Part shown: piece by piece, positions 22,260-32,821 of the stretch
How the letters are laid out: the number at the start of each line of letters is the position of its first letter
How positions within the stretch are numbered: position 1 is the first letter of the stretch
Source of the DNA: Actinomycetota bacterium
Lineage (GTDB): Bacteria; Actinomycetota; Geothermincolia; Geothermincolales; RBG-13-55-18
NCBI GenBank assembly: GCA_030019255.1
Contig: JASEFK010000004.1
Coordinates: 151,569-215,568 of the forward strand
Direction: 5' to 3'
Length of the DNA stretch: 64,000 nt
The notes under the pieces: model-generated
What the model was told of the DNA's origin: nothing
Databases searched by the model: none
What the model saw: only the letters and a program-made list of their open reading frames with translations
Translations under genes and position numbers: made by a program

Positions 22260-22940
22260 ATGGCGGGAAGGAGAAGGAAACCGGTTCCGGAAAGCGGCGG
22301 TGATGGAATGAAGCGCCGAAGGACGCGGGCGGCGGAGGATGAGAACCGGGAGAAGGCCCGGAGTTCTTCCGGGAAGGATGACCGCCGCACACGGATAATC
22401 CTGTCCTGCATAGACGTTTTCTCGCGCACCAATTACGAGAAGGCCACCACGGCCATGCTGGCCCGGGAGGCGGGGGTGGCGGAGGGCACCATCTACAAGT
22501 ATTTCCCCAGCAAGAAGGAGCTCTTCCTGGCTTGCTGCCGCTACATAGAGGACCAGCTTCTGCAGCGTTACCGGGCCATTTACCGGGAGTACCGGGACCG
22601 GCCGCTGGAGTCCCTCAAGCGGGTGGGGCAGAGCTACCTGGATTTCATACGGGAGAACCCAGCCATGCGCAAGTTCCTGGCCTTCATTCTCAACAACAGC
22701 TACGACGAGGATTTTTTGAGGGAGCTGGAGGGATTCTTCACCGTCAACCGCATGGCGGTGGAGGAGGTGATCAGGGAGGCGCAAAGAAAGGGGGAGCTCA
22801 AGGAAAGCATCGATCCCAGGATAGGGGCTTGGTTCTTCGTGGGCGGTTATTTCACCCTCATCCTCATGGCCGAGATGGACGAGGAGGCGGTGAACGACCC
22901 CCATTTCATGGACAAGTACATGGCGCCCATGTTTTCCTGA
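22260..22940 (+). CDS. TetR/AcrR family transcription regulator
   Basis: A 226-residue repressor. A basic, disordered N-terminus of about 40 residues precedes the helix-turn-helix (ATTAMLAREAGVAEGTIYKYFPSKKELF, residues about 61-88). The C-terminal ligand-binding domain is typical in size and helical content. A GAGGTG site precedes the ATG. It heads the acyl-CoA cluster and is preceded by the palindrome at 22061-22076. An acyl-CoA ligand is likely by context but cannot be read from the sequence. Confidence 0.9.
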   Translation: MAGRRRKPVPESGGDGMKRRRTRAAEDENREKARSSSGKDDRRTRIILSCIDVFSRTNYEKATTAMLAREAGVAEGTIYKYFPSKKELFLACCRYIEDQLLQRYRAIYREYRDRPLESLKRVGQSYLDFIRENPAMRKFLAFILNNSYDEDFLRELEGFFTVNRMAVEEVIREAQRKGELKESIDPRIGAWFFVGGYFTLILMAEMDEEAVNDPHFMDKYMAPMFS

Positions 22941-22988: not shown

Positions 22989-24710
22989 ATGACTTCCGAG
23001 GAGAAGCGTATGTACCTGCGCCGGGCCTGGCTGGCCTGGCGCCTGGCGCGCTCCCTGGCGCTGTTCCTGGTGGACGAGTACCGGCGGGGGACCCTCAAGG
23101 AAAACCTGCGCAGCATCCTGGAAGCACGGAGTCTTTCCCTGAGCCGAGACATGTCCCATGCCGAGCTTCTGGAGGAGAAGGCCGAAAGGCACGGGGACCG
23201 TCCCTTCCTCCGCTTCCAGGACCGGGTGTTCACCTACCGGGAGATGAATCTCAACGCCAACCGGGTTGCCATTTTTCTCCAGGACCTGGGCGGCGGTCCG
23301 GGGGTGGGCCTGGCCATCGTCATGAGGAACTCGCCCCGCTGGCTGGACGTCTTCTTCGGGCTGGAGAAACTGGGCATGTACGCCGTCCCGGTCAACGTGG
23401 CCCTGCGCGGGGACCAGCTGGCCTACGTGCTGGATAATTCCGACGCCTCCATGGTGGTCATCGACCACGACCTGCTTCCCTATTACCAGGTGGTGGCGGA
23501 CCGCCTGGACAAGGTGAAGAAGGTCATCGTCAACCGGGAGGGAGCGGCGGAGGATTTCCGGCTGCCCGAGGGGATGGAAGATCTCGACGCCGCTTACGGA
23601 CCTGACTCCGACCCCTCCCAGCCGGCGGTGACCTACAACCCCGAGGACCTCTGCGTGATCATGTACACCTCGGGGACCACTGGGCTCCCTAAGGGGGTGG
23701 TCTACCGCTACAACAGCACCAACGTCAAGGCCATCTCCGTTATCGGCCGCCTGCTGACGGGAAGGAAGGACGTGGCCTACACCTGTTATCCCCTCTTCCA
23801 CGCCAACGCCCTCTTTCTCACCGTGACCCCGGCCATGCACTGCGGAGCGCAGGTGGCCCTGGGGGTGAGGTTCAGCGCCAGCCGCTTCTGGGAGGAGATA
23901 CGGAAGCACGGCGCCACCACCTTCAACGGGCTGGGAGCGGTCATGCCCATTCTCATGAAACAGCCCCCCAGGCCCTCGGACCGGGACCACCGGGTGCGCT
24001 TCGTACTCTCCGCCGGCTGCCCGGCGGATATGTGGGAAGATTTCGAGAAGCGCTTCGGGGTGAAGATCTTCGAGGGATACGGGGCGGTGGACGGCGGAGG
24101 GGTGGTGATCACCAATTTCGGGACCGCCCCTGTGGGGTCCATGGGCAAGCCCCTCAACGCCAGGTGCCGCATCATCGACGACCAGGGCAACGACGTGCCC
24201 CCCGGTACCCCGGGCGAGCTCATCTGCTACGTGGGGGAGCGGAAGGGCTCGGTGGAATATTACAAGAACCCGGAGGCTACCAGCGACAAGGTGAGGGACG
24301 GGTGGCTGTACACCGGGGACCTGGTCTACGCGGACGACAAGGGCTACATCTACTTCCTGGGGCGCAACACGGAATCCATGCGCGTCAAGGGGGAGAACGT
24401 CTCCGCCTACGAGGTGGAGCAGGCCATCCTCAAGCATCCCGACGTACTGGAATGCGCCGTCTACGCCGTTCCCTCCGAACTGGCCGAGGACGAGATCATG
24501 GCCACCGTGGTGCCCGTGGAGGGGAAGACCCTGGACCCCGCCTCCATGCCTGCCTTCCTCTCCGACAAGCTGGCAAAATTCGCCATCCCGCGCTACTGGC
24601 GGGTGGTGGAAGAACTTCCCAAGACGGAGACCCACCGGGTGATCAAGAAGGAGCTGGAGAAGCTGGGGGTGACCCCGGACACCTACGATGCCAAGGCGGC
24701 AGCGAAGTGA
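22989..24710 (+). CDS. AMP-forming acyl-CoA synthetase (FadD/FATP-like)
   Basis: A 573-residue ANL-superfamily enzyme that activates a carboxylic acid, probably a fatty or other lipid acid, to its CoA thioester. The P-loop motif is MYTSGTTGLPKGVVY, the adenine-site region reads EGYGAVDGGG where EGYGxTE is usual, and the hinge is TGDLVYADDKGYIYFLGRN. The C-terminal lysine region reads KTETHRVIKKEL. The N-terminus has a helical stretch typical of very-long-chain synthetases. It is 48 bases after the TetR gene and probably co-transcribed. Confidence 0.92.
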   Translation: MTSEEKRMYLRRAWLAWRLARSLALFLVDEYRRGTLKENLRSILEARSLSLSRDMSHAELLEEKAERHGDRPFLRFQDRVFTYREMNLNANRVAIFLQDLGGGPGVGLAIVMRNSPRWLDVFFGLEKLGMYAVPVNVALRGDQLAYVLDNSDASMVVIDHDLLPYYQVVADRLDKVKKVIVNREGAAEDFRLPEGMEDLDAAYGPDSDPSQPAVTYNPEDLCVIMYTSGTTGLPKGVVYRYNSTNVKAISVIGRLLTGRKDVAYTCYPLFHANALFLTVTPAMHCGAQVALGVRFSASRFWEEIRKHGATTFNGLGAVMPILMKQPPRPSDRDHRVRFVLSAGCPADMWEDFEKRFGVKIFEGYGAVDGGGVVITNFGTAPVGSMGKPLNARCRIIDDQGNDVPPGTPGELICYVGERKGSVEYYKNPEATSDKVRDGWLYTGDLVYADDKGYIYFLGRNTESMRVKGENVSAYEVEQAILKHPDVLECAVYAVPSELAEDEIMATVVPVEGKTLDPASMPAFLSDKLAKFAIPRYWRVVEELPKTETHRVIKKELEKLGVTPDTYDAKAAAK

Positions 24711-24954: not shown

Positions 24955-26202
24955 ATGGGCAACGACGTGTATATCCTGGGCGTGGGCATGATCCGCTTCG
25001 GCAAGTACGCGGAAAGGAGCGTCAAGCAGCTGGTGGCCGAGGCCATGCAGGCCCTTTTCGAGGATTGCCCGGTGGAGAGAAAGGACATCCAAGCGGCCTG
25101 GTTCTCCAACTCCGGCTGGGGAATGAACACCGGCCAGCACTGCATCCGCGGCCAGGTGGCCCTGGCTCCTCTGGGCATCCAGGGTATCCCCATCGTCAAC
25201 GTGGAGAACGCCTGCGCCGGGGGTTCCACGGCCTTGCGCGAGGCCTGGTTGAGCATCAAGGCGGAGCAGTTCGACCTGGTGCTGGCCGTGGGAGCGGAGA
25301 AAGTGTGGTTCCCGGAGGATAAGGCCAGGATGTTCGAGGGCTTTATTTCCGGCACCGATGTTGAAGTCATCCGGCCCATCATCGAGGCCTTCAAGGCCGA
25401 CGCCCGGAAGAAGGCCGAGGAAGCCGCATCCGCGGGCAAGGAAAAGAAGGGAGGACACTCCCCCTTCATGGACATTTACGCCATGGGGGCCCGGGCCCAC
25501 ATGAAGGCCTACGGAACCACCCAGAGGCAGCTGGCGGTGATCGCCGCCAAGAACCATTACCATGGGTCACTCAACCCCCTGGCCCAGTACCGGAAGAACA
25601 TGAGCGTGGAGGAGGTGCTGGAGGACGTCCTGGTGGCCTACCCCCTCACCCGTTCCATGTGCGCCCCCGTCGGGGACGGAGCGGCAGCCGCCCTGCTTTG
25701 CTCGGAGAGAGCCCTGAAGAGGTACCCGGAGGCACGCCCGGTGCGCATCCTGGCCTCCGCCCTGGCCTCGGGTTCCCTGCCCGATTCCGGGCTGGAGCCC
25801 ATCGGGAAGCGGCTGAGTAAGACGGCCTACGAGATGGCCGGGCTGGGCCCGGGGGACGTCGACGTGGCCGAGGTGCACGACGCCACGGCCTTCGGGGAAC
25901 TGCTGCAATACGAGGAGCTGGGTTTCTGTCCCGAGGGGGAAGGCGGTCCCTTCGCCGAATCCGGGGCCACCCGGCTGGGGGGGAAATTGCCGGTGAACAC
26001 CAGCGGGGGACTGGAATGCCGGGGGCATCCCATCGGGGCCTCGGGGATCGCCCAGGTATACGAGCTGGTCACCCAGCTGCGGGGGGAGGCGGGTCCCCGC
26101 CAGGTGGAGGGGGCGCGCATCGCGCTGGCGGAGAACGGCGGGGGTTTCATCGGCATGGGCGAAGCGGCCATGTGCATCCATATCCTGGAAAGAGTTTCCT
26201 GA
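24955..26202 (+). CDS. Thiolase family protein (SCP2/lipid-transfer thiolase type)
   Basis: A 415-residue thiolase-fold enzyme. The nucleophile Cys is in VENACAGGSTAL (about residues 84-95), and GGLECRGHPIGASG holds the second Cys/His pair. The usual third C-terminal motif reads ENGGGFIG rather than a CGGGG type, as in SCP-x/lipid-transfer thiolases. An internal insert, about residues 135-170, is rich in Lys and Ala. GGGGAGG precedes the ATG. Such thiolases cleave or form 3-ketoacyl-CoA, often branched or sterol side chains. No DUF35 OB-fold partner is adjacent. Confidence 0.9.
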   Translation: MGNDVYILGVGMIRFGKYAERSVKQLVAEAMQALFEDCPVERKDIQAAWFSNSGWGMNTGQHCIRGQVALAPLGIQGIPIVNVENACAGGSTALREAWLSIKAEQFDLVLAVGAEKVWFPEDKARMFEGFISGTDVEVIRPIIEAFKADARKKAEEAASAGKEKKGGHSPFMDIYAMGARAHMKAYGTTQRQLAVIAAKNHYHGSLNPLAQYRKNMSVEEVLEDVLVAYPLTRSMCAPVGDGAAAALLCSERALKRYPEARPVRILASALASGSLPDSGLEPIGKRLSKTAYEMAGLGPGDVDVAEVHDATAFGELLQYEELGFCPEGEGGPFAESGATRLGGKLPVNTSGGLECRGHPIGASGIAQVYELVTQLRGEAGPRQVEGARIALAENGGGFIGMGEAAMCIHILERVS

Positions 26203-26539: not shown

Positions 26540-27685
26540 ATGGCTAAGATGGTAGGCTTGAGCGAGGAACTGAGGCTCCTGGACGGGATGGCCAGGGATT
26601 TCGCCCTCAACGAGCTGGTGCAGGGAAGGGAGGAACGGGACCACTATCCCTTCGCGCCTCCCTGCGAGGACGTGCTGGCGCGTGCCCACCAGGTGGGATT
26701 CTTTTCCCTCCTCCTGCCGGAGGAACTGGGGGGAGCGGCGGAACCGGTGCAGGCCCTGTGTTTGGTGCTGGAGGAGGTGTGTCGGGAGGACGCCAGCCTG
26801 GGAGGCGCCGTCTTCACCGTGGCTTTGGCACAGGAATTGTTGGCCAGGGCGGGGGCGGTGGAAAAACTGGAGCAGATCTACTCCCGGACGGTGTCCGTCC
26901 GCGATGCCCTGTTGGCCTTTCCCTCCTTCCACAACCCGGGGGATACCCAGCCGAACCTGGCGGCCGAAAGGCACAAGGATGGTTACCGCCTTTCCGGCGG
27001 CGTGGATTACGTGGTGTTGGGGAACATCGCCGGCAAGGCCGTTTTGCCGGCCAAATCAGGGGACCGACCGGGATATTCCCTCTTCCTGGTGGATCTCCAG
27101 GCCGAGGGCTTGGAAGGGAGCGAGCCCGTCCTCAGCCTGGGCCTGCATGCCTGCCCGGCGGTGGACCTACGACTGTCCGGCGTGGAGGGCGAGCTGGTAG
27201 GGGAGGAAGGAAAAGGTCCGGATTATTTCGAGGCCGCGGTGGACCGCCTGAGCGTGGCCGCGGCGGCGGCTTCCTGTGGAGTGATGAAGGGATCCTTCAG
27301 TACCGCCCTGGATTACGCGAGACAGAGGATCCAGGGAGGGAGGAAGATCGTCAACTGGTCGGAGGTGCGCATGATCCTCTCCTCCATGGCGGTGAAGGCC
27401 AAGGTGGCGGAGATGCTGGTCCGGGAGGCCGCCCGGGCCGTGGACGGAAAGGAGCCGGGGTGGCGGCTGGCCTCCCGCGCCGCCGCCCTGCAGGTCCAGG
27501 AGGAAGCCACGGAGCTCACCTGCGACGGCATCCAGATTCTGGGCGGGAACGGGTACATGCAGGATTACGGGCAGGAAAAACGCTTCCGGGACGCCAAGCA
27601 GTTGCAGTCCCTGATGGGAATGGTGCCGCTGCGCCGGTTACGGTATATCCGGCGGATCGTGGATGGGGAATCCCCGTGGGCCTAA
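26540..27685 (+). CDS. Acyl-CoA dehydrogenase family protein lacking the usual catalytic Glu
   Basis: A 381-residue flavoprotein-fold protein. The N-terminal helical domain, central beta domain and C-terminal four-helix domain are recognisable; ILGGNGYMQDYGQEKRFRDAK is the C-terminal signature. After DAK, where catalytic subunits have IYEGT, it reads QLQSLMGM, so the MCAD-type Glu is absent. The alternative position before Arg in helix G (VDRLSVAAA) is Asp. This suggests a non-catalytic or altered partner of the next gene. The start is the ATG at 26540, after GAAGGGGTG; the open frame begins at 26402. The stop lies 13 bases before the next start. Confidence 0.9.
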   Translation: MAKMVGLSEELRLLDGMARDFALNELVQGREERDHYPFAPPCEDVLARAHQVGFFSLLLPEELGGAAEPVQALCLVLEEVCREDASLGGAVFTVALAQELLARAGAVEKLEQIYSRTVSVRDALLAFPSFHNPGDTQPNLAAERHKDGYRLSGGVDYVVLGNIAGKAVLPAKSGDRPGYSLFLVDLQAEGLEGSEPVLSLGLHACPAVDLRLSGVEGELVGEEGKGPDYFEAAVDRLSVAAAAASCGVMKGSFSTALDYARQRIQGGRKIVNWSEVRMILSSMAVKAKVAEMLVREAARAVDGKEPGWRLASRAAALQVQEEATELTCDGIQILGGNGYMQDYGQEKRFRDAKQLQSLMGMVPLRRLRYIRRIVDGESPWA

Positions 27686-27698
27686 GGGGGTGAAGGGC

Positions 27699-29231
27699 AT
27701 GTTGAGAAAGAGCGATTCCTCGCTGCTCCTCCGGGAGTTCCCGGACTTCACGGATACCATGCACAGTTTGGTGGCCATGGAGAAGATGCCCAGGGGAGTG
27801 GTGGACGAGTGTCGTGAGGCCGTAGCCCTGGCCCGGCGTTTCAACCGCACCGTGGCCCGCAATTACGCCCTGGAGCTGGACCGCCGCACGCAGGAAGATC
27901 CTACCTATCTCCCCTGGGAACTGGTGGAGGAGGCCAACCGCTGGGGATTCTTCACCATGTGGATTCCCAAGCTCTTTGGGGGAAAGGGATGGAGTCTCAC
28001 CAGCATCGCCCCCTTCGTGGAGGAGCTGGCCTCGGAGTGCCTGGCCATCACCAACCTCATCGGGGTGCACTATTTCGGGTTCTCCATCCTGGTGGCCACC
28101 TGGAACATACGGCTCATAGACCAGATCAGCCGCGAGGTGGTGGAGGGGGAGAAAACCGGCAAGCCGTGCCTGGTTTCCGGGGCGGTGACCGAGCCGGAAG
28201 CCGGGACCGACGCCGAGGAGGTGGAACTTCTGGCCCGGGCTAAAGTACGCTGTCACGCCCGCAGGGTGGAGGGGGGTTACGTGGTCAACGGGCGCAAGAT
28301 CTTCATCTCCAACGGGCACCTCTCCACCTGGCACATCCTCATTGCCTACGAGGACCTGGAAAGGCCGGACGAGAGCATGATCGCCTTCGCGGTGAAGAAC
28401 GGTACGCCTGGGTTCTCGTTCGGGCGGATGGAAAAGAAAATGGGCCAGAAGGGATGCCCGGCCAGCGAGCTGGTCTTCGAGGATTGTTTCATACCCGAGG
28501 AGAACATGCTGGTGGCCGCTTCCCGCCTGGAGGAGATGAAATTACTTTCCCGGGCGGCCCGGAGGATGAAGAGGGGCCCGCGGGAGCTGAGCATGCAGCT
28601 CATAGACTTCGTGGTATCGGCCACGCGACCGGGAGTGGGAGCCATGGGCGCGGGCGTGGCCCGGGGAGCCTTGGAGCTCGCCCTCCAGTTTGCAAGGGAG
28701 ACGGTGGTGGACGGGCGCCCGCTGGTCAACCACGAATGGGTACAGTGCCTGCTGGCGGAGATGTACATGAACGCCGCCCTGGCCCGCCTCTCCTACATGG
28801 AGGCGAATTATGCCAACAGCATGTACGGAATGGCCCGCCTGCTCGGCTTCAAGCCACTCTACTATTATCACCGGGCCATGCCCACCTCCGTTTTCGATCG
28901 CCTCATGCCCGCGGCCAACAGATTGGACGCTGTCACCTCCGCTTACCGCCTTCTGGTCATGGGGGGGCAGAGCGAGGAAGAGGAACGCCTGGCCTCGGGG
29001 TGGGCCTCCCTGGCCAAGGTGGCGGGGACCGACCTGGGGGTGAAGAACTGCCAGTTGGCCTTGGAGCTTATGGGGCAAGCTGGGTTGCGACACGACCGCC
29101 GGGCGGAGAAATGCCTGCGCGACGCCAAGCTCCTGCAGATATACGAGGGGACCAACCAGCTCAACAGGCTGAACGTCTTCAAATGCCTCGTAGCCCCGGC
29201 TGCCCCGGAGGCCAGGGCCTTCGAGGACTGA
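27699..29231 (+). CDS. Acyl-CoA dehydrogenase, catalytic type
   Basis: A 510-residue acyl-CoA dehydrogenase, longer than the usual 380-400. FAD/substrate motifs are SGAVTEPEAGTDAEEV and the NGRKIFISNG stretch; the C-terminal KLLQIYEGTNQLNRL keeps the catalytic Glu, and Thr stands at the alternative helix-G position (SATRPGV), as in medium-chain enzymes. I chose the ATG at 27699 (GGGGGTGAAGGG upstream) over the ATG at 27663, which overlaps the previous gene. An extra N-terminal helical segment of about 60 residues and a longer C-terminal helical domain account for the length. It probably pairs with the preceding gene product. Confidence 0.92.
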   Translation: MLRKSDSSLLLREFPDFTDTMHSLVAMEKMPRGVVDECREAVALARRFNRTVARNYALELDRRTQEDPTYLPWELVEEANRWGFFTMWIPKLFGGKGWSLTSIAPFVEELASECLAITNLIGVHYFGFSILVATWNIRLIDQISREVVEGEKTGKPCLVSGAVTEPEAGTDAEEVELLARAKVRCHARRVEGGYVVNGRKIFISNGHLSTWHILIAYEDLERPDESMIAFAVKNGTPGFSFGRMEKKMGQKGCPASELVFEDCFIPEENMLVAASRLEEMKLLSRAARRMKRGPRELSMQLIDFVVSATRPGVGAMGAGVARGALELALQFARETVVDGRPLVNHEWVQCLLAEMYMNAALARLSYMEANYANSMYGMARLLGFKPLYYYHRAMPTSVFDRLMPAANRLDAVTSAYRLLVMGGQSEEEERLASGWASLAKVAGTDLGVKNCQLALELMGQAGLRHDRRAEKCLRDAKLLQIYEGTNQLNRLNVFKCLVAPAAPEARAFED

Positions 29232-29458
29232 AGGCGATGAGGGGCGTCTTTCCCGGGGAGGACCTGCGACCTCCACGGGGCGGCGTGGATATGGAAATGC
29301 GGAAAACAGGCTGAAAGCGGAGAAGTCGCATCTTCACAAATCCCGCGGAAGTCGAAGGGAGGATAGGGGACCACGCAAGGTGCGTCGGCGGGCCGCATGG
29401 TAAGGAACGCCACGGTCACCTGTCGGTGGATCTCGGATCCAGGGTTCAAGGAGGGCAC

Positions 29459-30214
29459 ATGGTGGAGACGGTCATGGAGAAAAGGCACCGCAGGGAAGCG
29501 GAGTTCGGGGAGATGTACACCTGGTACGAGGGGATGGAATGGAACCCGGTGGAGAGGGTCATCCTGGAGCGGCGCAGCGTGCGGAAGTACAAGGACCGGC
29601 AGGTACCGGAAAAGCTGGTGCGCCGCATCCTGGAGGCGGGGCGGTTCGCTCCGTCGGCCGGCAACGCCCAGCCCTGGAGGTTCGTGGTGGTCCGAGACTG
29701 GAACATGCTGGAGGAGATGGAAAAATATGTAAGATTTCGCTGCCGGGTCCTGAAGTTCATGCTGGACTGGGAGAGCAGCCCCCTGGGGAGGCTCTCCTGG
29801 CTCCTGGCCCAGACCTACATCCGGCTGATGCCCAACAAGCTCCACCCCATCCCCTTCGGCGCCATCCGCCTCATCGCCGATGGCAAGCTCAAGCTCTTCC
29901 ACGGCGCGCCCACGGTGATCTTCATCCTGGAGGATATGCGCGGGGTGTCCAAGCCCCAGGTGGACATCGGCATCTGCGGACAGAACATGGTGCTGGCCGC
30001 CCATTCCCTGGGCCTGGGGACCTGCTGGGTGGGGTTCGTTGAAATCCTCAAGTTCGGGAGCAAGTGGAAGAAGAAACTGGGCGCCCGGTGGCCCTACCGG
30101 TTCGCGGAGGCCATATGCCTCGGTTACCCGGTGGGCGAGCCCGATGGGATGGTGGCCCGGGAGCTCCACGAGATCGACTGGTGGGAAAACGGGAAAAAAC
30201 GGACCGTGTTTTGA
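29459..30214 (+). CDS. Nitroreductase family flavoprotein
   Basis: A 251-residue FMN-dependent oxidoreductase-like protein. The FMN signature RRSVRKYKDRQVPEKLVRRILEAGRFAPSAGNAQPW is in residues about 34-70, and LGLGTCWVGFVE is the second family motif. A central insert (about residues 85-130), rich in aromatic and basic residues, could contact a membrane or partner. AAGGAGGG precedes the ATG at 29459. The ferredoxin gene follows 14 bases later, so the two probably form an electron-transfer pair. The substrate is unknown; it need not be a nitro compound. Confidence 0.88.
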   Translation: MVETVMEKRHRREAEFGEMYTWYEGMEWNPVERVILERRSVRKYKDRQVPEKLVRRILEAGRFAPSAGNAQPWRFVVVRDWNMLEEMEKYVRFRCRVLKFMLDWESSPLGRLSWLLAQTYIRLMPNKLHPIPFGAIRLIADGKLKLFHGAPTVIFILEDMRGVSKPQVDIGICGQNMVLAAHSLGLGTCWVGFVEILKFGSKWKKKLGARWPYRFAEAICLGYPVGEPDGMVARELHEIDWWENGKKRTVF

Positions 30215-30228
30215 AAGGGGAATCGACC

Positions 30229-30561
30229 ATGGCCTACCTTACCCTGAAGGAAATCCTTACCATCCCCACCTACAACGACCCGGAAACCTGCCGGGCAGGC
30301 AGGGTAGTCATCGATCATGGGAAATGCAACGGCTGTGGCAACTGCGCGTTGATCTGCCCCGGCGCCTGCCTCTACGTGGCCGGCCTGGGCAAGGAACGCA
30401 AGGCCTACATGATCGACAAGGCGGTGGCGGACTGCATGTCCTGCAACGATTGCGCGGCCATCTGTAAGCAGGGAGCCATCCGGGCCGTTCACGGCTACGA
30501 TTTCGGCTTTTTCTACAAGGTGCTCCACCGGGCGGAGATGGTCCCCCCAAGGAATTTTTAG
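30229..30561 (+). CDS. 2[4Fe-4S] ferredoxin-like protein
   Basis: A 110-residue iron-sulfur protein. Two clusters are predicted from CNGCGNCALICP and CMSCNDCAAICK, each with the CxxCxxCxxxC spacing; Pro follows the first but Lys the second. About 30 residues precede the first motif and about 25 follow the second, so it is longer than minimal ferredoxins. AAAGGGG precedes the ATG. It is translated just after the nitroreductase and probably carries electrons to or from it. The stop codon overlaps the first base of a dispersed repeat. Confidence 0.92.
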   Translation: MAYLTLKEILTIPTYNDPETCRAGRVVIDHGKCNGCGNCALICPGACLYVAGLGKERKAYMIDKAVADCMSCNDCAAICKQGAIRAVHGYDFGFFYKVLHRAEMVPPRNF

Positions 30562-30598: not shown

Positions 30599-31018
30599 AG
30601 TACCGCGGGGTGCCAGCGGGGTGACCTCCTCCCGCCCTCGACAAGGGGATAAATGGGGGCGGTAAATACGGAGGAAAGCCCTGGCCGGAACATGGCCTGG
30701 GAGGCGCCGGAGCGCCCCATCCCCCAAGCCCCGGCCCTTCGGGAGGTTCCACGGACATAGATGAGGGGATTGCGGATGTGATGTCCGGTTATTTCAGGCG
30801 GATGCAGGGAATAGTTCAAGATGGGATAGCGGTGAGTTCGCTAACCACATGGGAGACATCATGCTGTCGAGGAGGTTGAGAATGGCGTGAGCTGAAGGAC
30901 GGGTGGCGAGGCCGGATACCTGAGGGAACGCAAGACAAGTGACCCGGGATGCGTTGCTTGAAGCCCGATCGAGTCAGGTTCAGGACCTTGCGCGGAAAGG
31001 AACGGAGGGGAATTGGGG
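30599..31018. other. Intergenic region after repeat copy 1
   Basis: About 420 bases with no gene I can support. Several short G+C-rich inverted stretches (for example around 30700-30740) could fold, but there is no recognisable RNA family. GGAGGGG at 31004-31010 is the ribosome site of the next gene. Confidence 0.5.
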
Positions 31019-31870
31019 ATGTACAGGCTGGATGGTAAGAGGGTAGTCATCACCGGTGCCGGTTCAGGGTTGGGAAGGGCCCTTTCGCTGGCCCTGGCCT
31101 CCAGGGGGTGCCGGATAGGCGTGGTGGATATAGACGAGTCCAGGGCAGGAGAGACCCTGGAAATGGTAAGGCAGAAGGGCGGGGACGGTGAGGCCTACCG
31201 CCTGGACGTGAGCCGGCCGGAGGAAGTGGAGGCCATGGCCGAGCACTTCTTCCGATCCTGGGGTGGAGTGGACGTCCTGGTCAATAACGCCGGCGTGGTT
31301 TCCACCGGTTTCGTGGGGGACATCCCCCTGGAGGACTGGGAATGGGTTTTCGGGGTCAACTTCTGGGGGATGCTCTACGGGTGCCATTTCTTCATTCCCC
31401 GCATGAAGACGCAAGGAGGCGGGTACATCGTCAACGTGGCCTCGGCGGCTGGTCTTTTGACCCTCCTGGAGATGGGTCCCTACAACGCCACCAAGGCGGC
31501 GGTCATCGCTCTCACCGAGACCCTGCGGAGCGAGCTGGCTCCCTTCAACATAGGGGTCACCGCCGTATGCCCCATGTTCTTCAACACCCGCCTCCTGGAG
31601 AGCATGCGCTACACCGACGATTTCGAGAGGGAGTTCGCCGAGACCACCTTCCGTTACGCGCGCATGAGCGCGGAGCAGGTGGCGGAGGCGGTGATCCAGG
31701 CGGTGGAGAAAAGGAGGCTGTACGTTGTCCCCCAGCTTTCCGGGAGGCTGTTCTGGCTGATCAAGCGGATGAAACCAGGTCTCTATCACCGCACCCTGGC
31801 CTTTTTCAACCGCGACGACCTGGGGAGGCGACTCCTGCTTTGGATGGCGCGCAAGGGACTCATCCAGTAG
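31019..31870 (+). CDS. Short-chain dehydrogenase/reductase (first of two)
   Basis: A 283-residue classical SDR. The cofactor loop is TGAGSGLGRALS, VNNAGVVSTG the second motif, and the catalytic YNATK is preceded by the SAAGLL serine region. VDIDES after strand 2 suggests NAD(H) preference through its Asp. A C-terminal extension of about 50 residues, rich in Arg and aromatics (LFWLIKRMKPGLYHRTLAFF), may touch membrane or acyl chain. The ATG at 31019 is 8 bases after GGAGGGG; an in-frame TTG at 31013 is less likely. Probably acts on 3-hydroxyacyl-CoA or a related alcohol. Confidence 0.92.
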   Translation: MYRLDGKRVVITGAGSGLGRALSLALASRGCRIGVVDIDESRAGETLEMVRQKGGDGEAYRLDVSRPEEVEAMAEHFFRSWGGVDVLVNNAGVVSTGFVGDIPLEDWEWVFGVNFWGMLYGCHFFIPRMKTQGGGYIVNVASAAGLLTLLEMGPYNATKAAVIALTETLRSELAPFNIGVTAVCPMFFNTRLLESMRYTDDFEREFAETTFRYARMSAEQVAEAVIQAVEKRRLYVVPQLSGRLFWLIKRMKPGLYHRTLAFFNRDDLGRRLLLWMARKGLIQ

Positions 31871-31963: not shown

Positions 31964-32821
31964 ATGGCCAGAGTCAGATTGCCGGGAAAGAAAGGAATGG
32001 AGTGGTTCCGGGGAAGGACGGCGGTGGTCACCGGCGCCGCCTCCGGCCTGGGGAGGGGCATCGCCCTGGCCCTGGCCGACGCGGGATGTCACCTGGTGGT
32101 GGCGGACATCGATGACCGGCGCCTGGACGCGGTGCGGGCGGAGGTCGAGGGAAAGGGCCGGGACTGCCTGGCGCGGAGGGTGGACGTTTCCGTTCGCCGG
32201 GAGATGGAGGACCTCGCCGAGGTCGCCCTGGGGTGGAAGGGGCAGGTCGATATCCTGGTCAACAACGCGGGGGTGGGCGGGAGCGGGGAGCTGGACGTCA
32301 TTCCCGTGGAGGATATCGAGTGGATCGTGGGCGTCAACCTCATGGGGGAGATCTACGGGTGCCGCTTCTTCCTCCCCCACATGGTGCGGCGAGGGGAGGG
32401 GCATATCGTGAACATCGCTTCCCTCTCGGGCCTGGTGGCGCTCCCCCTCCACGTGGCCTACACGGTGACCAAGTTCGGGGTGGTAGGCCTCTCGGAGATG
32501 CTCTGGGCGGAGGCGCGTAACCACGGGGTGGGCGTCACCGTGGTCTGCCCGGGAGCCATCAGCACGGACATAGGTTTTCACACCCGCAATCACTACCGCA
32601 CGGAAAAGCAGCGAGAGAACGAGGAACGCTACGCGGCCATGCTCCGGGAAAGAGGCATGGATCCCTTGGACGCGGGTAGGAAAATTGTGGAATCCATATC
32701 CCGGGGCAAGTTCATGGTCCTCCTGGGCAAGGAGGCCTACCTGCTCTACTACCTCAAGCGCCTGGCCCCCATGCTCTGCCTCCGGATCGCCTCCTTCGTC
32801 TCCCGTAGGCTCCTACGTTAA
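31964..32821 (+). CDS. Short-chain dehydrogenase/reductase (second of two)
   Basis: A 285-residue paralogue of the preceding SDR, in tandem and 93 bases on. Motifs: TGAASGLGRGIA, VADIDDRR (acidic residue after strand 2, NAD-type), VNNAGVGGSG, the catalytic YTVTK and the SLSGLV serine region. The C-terminus also carries an Arg/aromatic extension (LLYYLKRLAPMLCLRIASF). The ribosome site AGGTAGG precedes the ATG. The stop is followed within one base by repeat copy 2. The pair may handle consecutive or stereochemically distinct oxidations. Confidence 0.92.
   Translation: MARVRLPGKKGMEWFRGRTAVVTGAASGLGRGIALALADAGCHLVVADIDDRRLDAVRAEVEGKGRDCLARRVDVSVRREMEDLAEVALGWKGQVDILVNNAGVGGSGELDVIPVEDIEWIVGVNLMGEIYGCRFFLPHMVRRGEGHIVNIASLSGLVALPLHVAYTVTKFGVVGLSEMLWAEARNHGVGVTVVCPGAISTDIGFHTRNHYRTEKQRENEERYAAMLRERGMDPLDAGRKIVESISRGKFMVLLGKEAYLLYYLKRLAPMLCLRIASFVSRRLLR

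Follow-up and report, generated by a model that had tools for sequence, protein, structure and literature searches.

Identification of two adjoining acyl-CoA dehydrogenase genes

In the window analyzed here, a 64,000-nucleotide stretch of an Actinomycetota genome, two acyl-CoA dehydrogenase (ACAD) genes lie side by side, and only one of them carries the glutamate of the predicted catalytic base. This raises the question of whether the two products act separately or as the halves of one enzyme. Both open reading frames claimed in the earlier note were re-read from the sequence: P0001 (381 aa, positions 26540-27685, forward strand) is followed by P0002 (510 aa, positions 27699-29231, forward strand), and the gap of 13 bases (27686-27698) was confirmed. 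The Pfam N-terminal, middle and C-terminal ACAD domains of P0002 all scored above the cut-off, as did the N-terminal and C-terminal domains of P0001, while the middle (flavin-binding) domain of P0001 fell below it (20 vs 33.3 bits). AlphaFold2 predicted the ACAD fold for both proteins, with mean pLDDT values of 89.0 for P0001 and 86.1 for P0002. Judged by their domains and predicted folds, both are members of the ACAD superfamily. Automatic annotation would label genes of these two types as two ordinary dehydrogenases, and a literature search turned up nothing on the pair.

The best structural matches of both models, searched with Foldseek and VIA-align, were ordinary ACADs. Specifically, 375 of 379 residues were aligned between the P0002 model and 1ukw (Z 39.8, rmsd 1.9), and the mycobacterial two-subunit enzyme 4x28 (ChsE4-ChsE5) was not among the best 50 matches listed by Foldseek and VIA-align for P0002 or by Foldseek for P0001. 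The size difference between the two proteins, which had seemed unusual, proved to be real and made of defined inserts in P0002: by alignment and model, P0002 is extended at the N-terminus and carries small inserts and additional helices. The helices make up the largest share of the extra length; they lie at about residues 377-421 in the model, and at about residues 374-425 (positions 28818-28973, forward strand) by model and structural alignment together.

Loss of the catalytic glutamate in P0001

The contrast between SLMGM in P0001 and IYEGT in P0002 was borne out by the sequence and alignment: the catalytic column holds Met359 in P0001 (codon ATG, 27614-27616, forward strand) and Glu483, the predicted catalytic base, in P0002 (codon GAG, 29145-29147, forward strand). 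Among 26 P0001-type proteins this column was Leu in 16, Met in nine and Phe in one, with no Glu (0/26), and it was Glu in 26/26 P0002-type proteins. This pattern across 26 + 26 proteins indicates that the loss of Glu in P0001 is not chance. In the more distant B-type group described below, Glu was found in none of 11 B1 and all of 12 B2 proteins, and it was present in 11 of 13 ordinary ACADs (the others had one Ala and one Asp). One single ACAD of the same genome (L014:5653-6819) has Asp at this position, within QIWDGT. By its motifs, the pair at this locus fits the heteromeric ACAD working type, with Glu in only one of two adjoining subunits.

Conservation of the pair in related genomes

A scan of genome contigs for close relatives of P0002 gave seven, at 53-71 percent identity: six come from deltaproteobacterial records (L017-L022, among them Desulfoluna limicola) and the seventh from an Actinomycetota MAG (L016). 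At all seven loci a P0001 relative adjoins the P0002 relative. In 296 genomes of the source phylum, 19 A-type P0002 loci then scored above 700 bits, including the source locus, and a P0001 relative is adjacent at 19/19. Overall, every A-type locus, from records of two phyla, was paired (26/26). The order is P0001-P0002 in 12 of these pairs and P0002-P0001 in 14, so pairing has persisted where the order of the genes changed. When the same 296 genomes were searched with the P0001 family, 20 loci were found in 17 genomes, the same 17 that carry A-type P0002 (a count that includes related, not independent, genomes). At the 20th P0001-type locus (L168), the partner in the same place is a weaker P0002 match of 391 bits.

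Pairwise distances within the P0001-type set (26 proteins) and within the P0002-type set (26 proteins) were correlated (mirror-tree r 0.76), and none of 2000 permutations reached as high a value; this correlation reflects joint inheritance and is by itself no proof of contact. No fused P0001-P0002 protein was found among the loci read. Two long open frames looked like candidates and were rejected: in L111 the upstream frame is low-complexity, runs out of frame over an SDR gene and has no domain, and in L102 the extension overlaps the P0001 gene.

Pairing in the B-type group

Beside the A-type loci, the 296-genome search revealed a more distant B-type group. For this group, DNA was read at 12 loci (11 from this search, plus L009), with about a dozen further rows left out, and 11 of the 12 have a partner gene. 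B-type catalytic subunits, at 451-491 aa as cut, are likewise long. One B-type relative of P0002 (L127/L170) has no partner gene within the 6.5 kb of contig read. In the source genome itself, L010:5395-7163 (contig C5) holds a B-type catalytic ACAD in two frames (ORFs of 208 and 450 aa), apparently frameshifted, with no partner gene nearby; it is apparently a decaying copy or an assembly error. With L127/L170 and L010 unpaired, the B branch shows exceptions to pairing.

The source genome also contains a second, paralogous cluster, L009 (C2:74000-86000), with B-type catalytic and non-catalytic subunits, a ligase, a thiolase and a nitroreductase-ferredoxin fusion. Its thiolase (C2:85183-86439) is 77 percent identical to the thiolase near P0001-P0002. 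In an Actinomycetes MAG, L023:1918-4347 encodes a catalytic subunit similar to the B type and, after it, a frame that resembles the non-catalytic subunit, an arrangement suggesting that the B-type pair may extend beyond the class of the source genome.

Comparison with known two-subunit dehydrogenases

Passages of PMC6678751, PMC11153573 and PMC8399759 describe two-subunit ACADs in which one partner is dead, all from the breakdown of steroids and bile acids. As stated in parts of PMC11153573 and PMC8399759, ChsE4-ChsE5 is an alpha2-beta2 ACAD whose FAD is shared between alpha and beta, and sections of PMC6678751 cover additional heteromeric ACADs that act in the catabolism of bile acids and steroids. 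Like ChsE4-ChsE5 (FadE26-FadE27, PDB 4x28) and ChsE1-ChsE2 (FadE28-FadE29) of Mycobacterium, P0001 and P0002 are encoded by adjoining genes, and the Glu and flavin motif are present in one subunit and absent from the other. Unlike them, our pair stands elsewhere in the ACAD tree, has a 510-aa catalytic subunit with extra helices, and neighbours a thiolase, a nitroreductase and a ferredoxin.

Three further systems offer partial parallels. Tcur3481-Tcur3483 (PDB 6wy8/6wy9), a steroid/bile-acid ACAD of Thermomonospora curvata, also has two subunits, and the P0001 profile matches Tcur3481 (E 4.5e-20), although many ordinary homomeric ACADs match P0001 better. The pimeloyl-CoA dehydrogenase PimC-PimD (TIGR03204, TIGR03203) is, by its model names, likewise a pair of a large and a small subunit, but P0001 scored only 41 bits against TIGR03203 (cut-off 652.7) and no TIGR03204 match was listed for P0002. 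In CasC of Rhodococcus jostii, according to a portion of PMC8399759, one ACAD domain has the Glu and the other is required for FAD; unlike P0001-P0002, its two ACAD domains are fused in one chain. Overall, as far as residues and gene context indicate, P0001-P0002 looks like an obligate pair of the ChsE4-ChsE5 working type, in which the catalytic subunit is enlarged and the gene neighbourhood is conserved and its own.

Phylogenetic relationship to steroid dehydrogenases

The earlier note named mycobacterial sterol enzymes, which might be read as implying a kinship with them. We built two trees, a quick one of 86 ACADs that took in 15 of the 26 A-type pairs and a careful one of 53 ACADs that took in eight; in both, the known heteromeric rows come from one mycobacterial genome only (M. 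aurum), in which gene names such as FadE30 were inferred from position. The best matches of its ChsE-like pairs among solved structures were 4x28_A + 4x28_D for one pair and 6wy8_B + 4x28_D for the other. In both trees, A1 with B1 and A2 with B2, together with the single ACADs of L024 and L025, form one group (95/84 in the careful tree), and a second group (93/92) unites FadE30 with the alphas and betas of the mycobacterial pairs. Ordinary ACADs stand between the two split-ACAD groups in both trees, which contain long branches. The L024 and L025 proteins (L024:3744-5777 and L025:5036-7164) are the nearest tree relatives of the catalytic subunits, and a conserved ORF of 260-311 aa lies upstream of each.

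A divergent ChsE/FadE26-29/IpdE-type enzyme, whose split goes back to the same event as that of the steroid ACADs, is an unlikely reading of the pair. In its favour, a single clade of all beta subunits was not rejected (p 0.454), and a single clade of all alphas, with FadE30, L024 and L025 left free, was only marginal (p 0.075). An initial alpha-clade test (p 2e-8) was set aside, since its constraint pushed FadE30 from its own group. Against a shared origin stand the separation of the groups in both trees and the rejection of a joint single origin of alpha and beta (log-likelihood 51 lower, p 0.0004), in a test set after the tree had been seen. In addition, three M. aurum alphas match TIGR03204 (pimC_large) at 195-200 bits, whereas the matches of this model at E 0.001 do not include P0002. 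The trees do not support such a kinship, and these results favour, but do not settle, a separate origin of the split. A clean case of complementary residue loss, in a branch of its own and in other phyla, would suggest that ACADs were split on at least two occasions and that such splitting is not confined to steroid breakdown.

Predicted division of FAD contacts between the two subunits

To describe the FAD site, we tabulated an alignment of 88 ACADs, comprising 26 P0001-type, 26 P0002-type, 11 B1, 12 B2 and 13 ordinary proteins. The ordinary ones were those at hand (seven from the source genome and six from the close-relative loci), and the table omits the related locus L023, which had been aligned. 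Columns were assigned to the own or the neighbour's FAD from MCAD, with residues that we take to be R281, Gln349, Gly353 and Phe284 in its numbering. The own-FAD motif TEPxxG(S/T)D is kept in P0002 as TEPEAGTD (28188-28211, forward strand) and lost in the aligned stretch of P0001, which reads PSFHNPGD (26921-26944, forward strand). This motif was found in none of the 26 P0001-type and all 26 P0002-type proteins, in 0/11 B1 and in 12/12 B2; its Thr, Glu, Gly and Ser were present in 13/13 ordinary ACADs.

The partner-side residues showed the opposite distribution. P0001 Arg263 (27326-27328, forward strand) aligns with R281 of MCAD, where P0002 has Thr335, and the QILGG loop of P0001 (Gln332-Gly336, 27533-27547, forward strand), expected to reach the neighbour's FAD, is a degenerate ELMGQ in P0002; its Gln and both Gly are kept in all 26 P0001-type proteins. 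The Arg281, Gln349 and Gly353 (second Gly of GG) equivalents were each found in 26/26 P0001-type, 11/11 B1 and 13/13 ordinary proteins. In P0002-type proteins they occurred in 0/26, 1/26 and 2/26, and in B2 in 4/12, 1/12 and 0/12, respectively. Exceptions on the partner side include the Phe284 column, which is Gly in 26/26 P0001-type proteins, and columns 291-292, which are Trp-Ser there. The table thus indicates that P0001 retains most partner-FAD residues and has lost its own site, while P0002 did the opposite, and that the B-type subunits (B1 n=11, B2 n=12) underwent the same complementary loss as the A-type pairs. By these motifs, the FAD contacts appear to be split between P0001 and P0002.

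Very probably, then, P0002 (alpha, catalytic) and P0001 (beta, FAD-completing) form one obligate heteromeric ACAD, most likely alpha2-beta2. The heteromer with one catalytic partner that had been suggested is supported at the sequence level by the complementary loss in 26 A-type pairs and 11-12 B-type rows, the adjacency in 26/26, the co-occurrence in 17/296 genomes and the r of 0.76.

Instead, P0001 might be a non-enzymatic regulator or scaffold, or serve a different chemistry, with P0002 acting alone as a homotetramer. The absence of the base and own-FAD motif from P0001 and the one unpaired B-type relative of P0002 would fit such a role. We consider it very unlikely, as the partner-FAD residues required in a homomer are missing from P0002, and precisely these persist in P0001. 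The last alternative concerns helix G, whose alternative base site we take to be Thr255 of MCAD and Glu254 of IVD. The Thr claimed there for P0002 was found (Thr309), but the Asp claimed for P0001 was not: the aligned residue is Leu237, which rules out a helix-G Asp as base, and Asp235 lies two residues earlier. That P0001 is an active homomeric dehydrogenase using this nearby Asp235 is hardly credible, given the Leu at the base position, an Asp235 column common to ordinary ACADs (Asp in 9/13) and Asp in only 18 of 26 P0001-type proteins, and an own-FAD motif absent from all 26.

Proposed mechanism and gene neighbourhood

We infer the assembly, stoichiometry, FAD site and reaction of the heteromer from residue pattern, conservation, pairing and co-occurrence. 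P0002 would bind the acyl-CoA and hold FAD at its isoalloxazine end, with Glu483 as base, and Arg263 and the QILGG loop of P0001 would reach across the dimer interface to hold that FAD by its ADP end. Since the FAD would be shared across this interface, and the division of labour is that of ChsE4-ChsE5, one FAD and one active site are predicted per heterodimer, not two. The pair may serve as a natural replicate for asking why a halved number of active sites is useful, e.g. as room for bulky acyl groups.

All neighbouring genes lie on the forward strand. Upstream of the pair are a TetR-family regulator (22260-22940), an AMP-forming acyl-CoA ligase (22989-24710) and an SCP-x-type thiolase (24955-26202); downstream are a nitroreductase-family flavoprotein (29426-30214), a ferredoxin with two 4Fe-4S motifs (30229-30561, from an ATG inside ORF 30064-30561) and two short-chain dehydrogenases (SDRs; 31013-31870 and, by Pfam, 31964-32821). 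The ligase, thiolase and nitroreductase are conserved neighbours, near the pair at six of the seven close-relative loci (all but L022). The ferredoxin is present at four of the seven (E 1e-8), and at two more by weaker similarity among loci. The thiolase retains the candidate catalytic Cys in NACAGGS and a GHP motif, presumably its functional residues, and so appears to be a genuine thiolase. Among the annotated genes of the neighbourhood, no enoyl-CoA hydratase was found. The heteromer would desaturate an acyl-CoA made by the co-conserved ligase, and at a later step the thiolase would release the shortened product.

Of the 18 other A-type loci from the 296-genome search, 15 have the nitroreductase within the 1.5-kb flank; of the exceptions, L101 lies at a contig edge, and L114 and L115 have none in that flank. 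A combined reading, in which the pair belongs to a second, independently evolved split-ACAD lineage of an Actinomycetota class and deltaproteobacterial lineages and passes electrons to, or shares one step with, the nitroreductase-ferredoxin instead of or besides electron-transfer flavoprotein, seems rather unlikely. The nitroreductase and the two-cluster ferredoxin (29426-30561) come after the ACAD pair in most relatives, and at L009:3957-4955 they form one fused protein.
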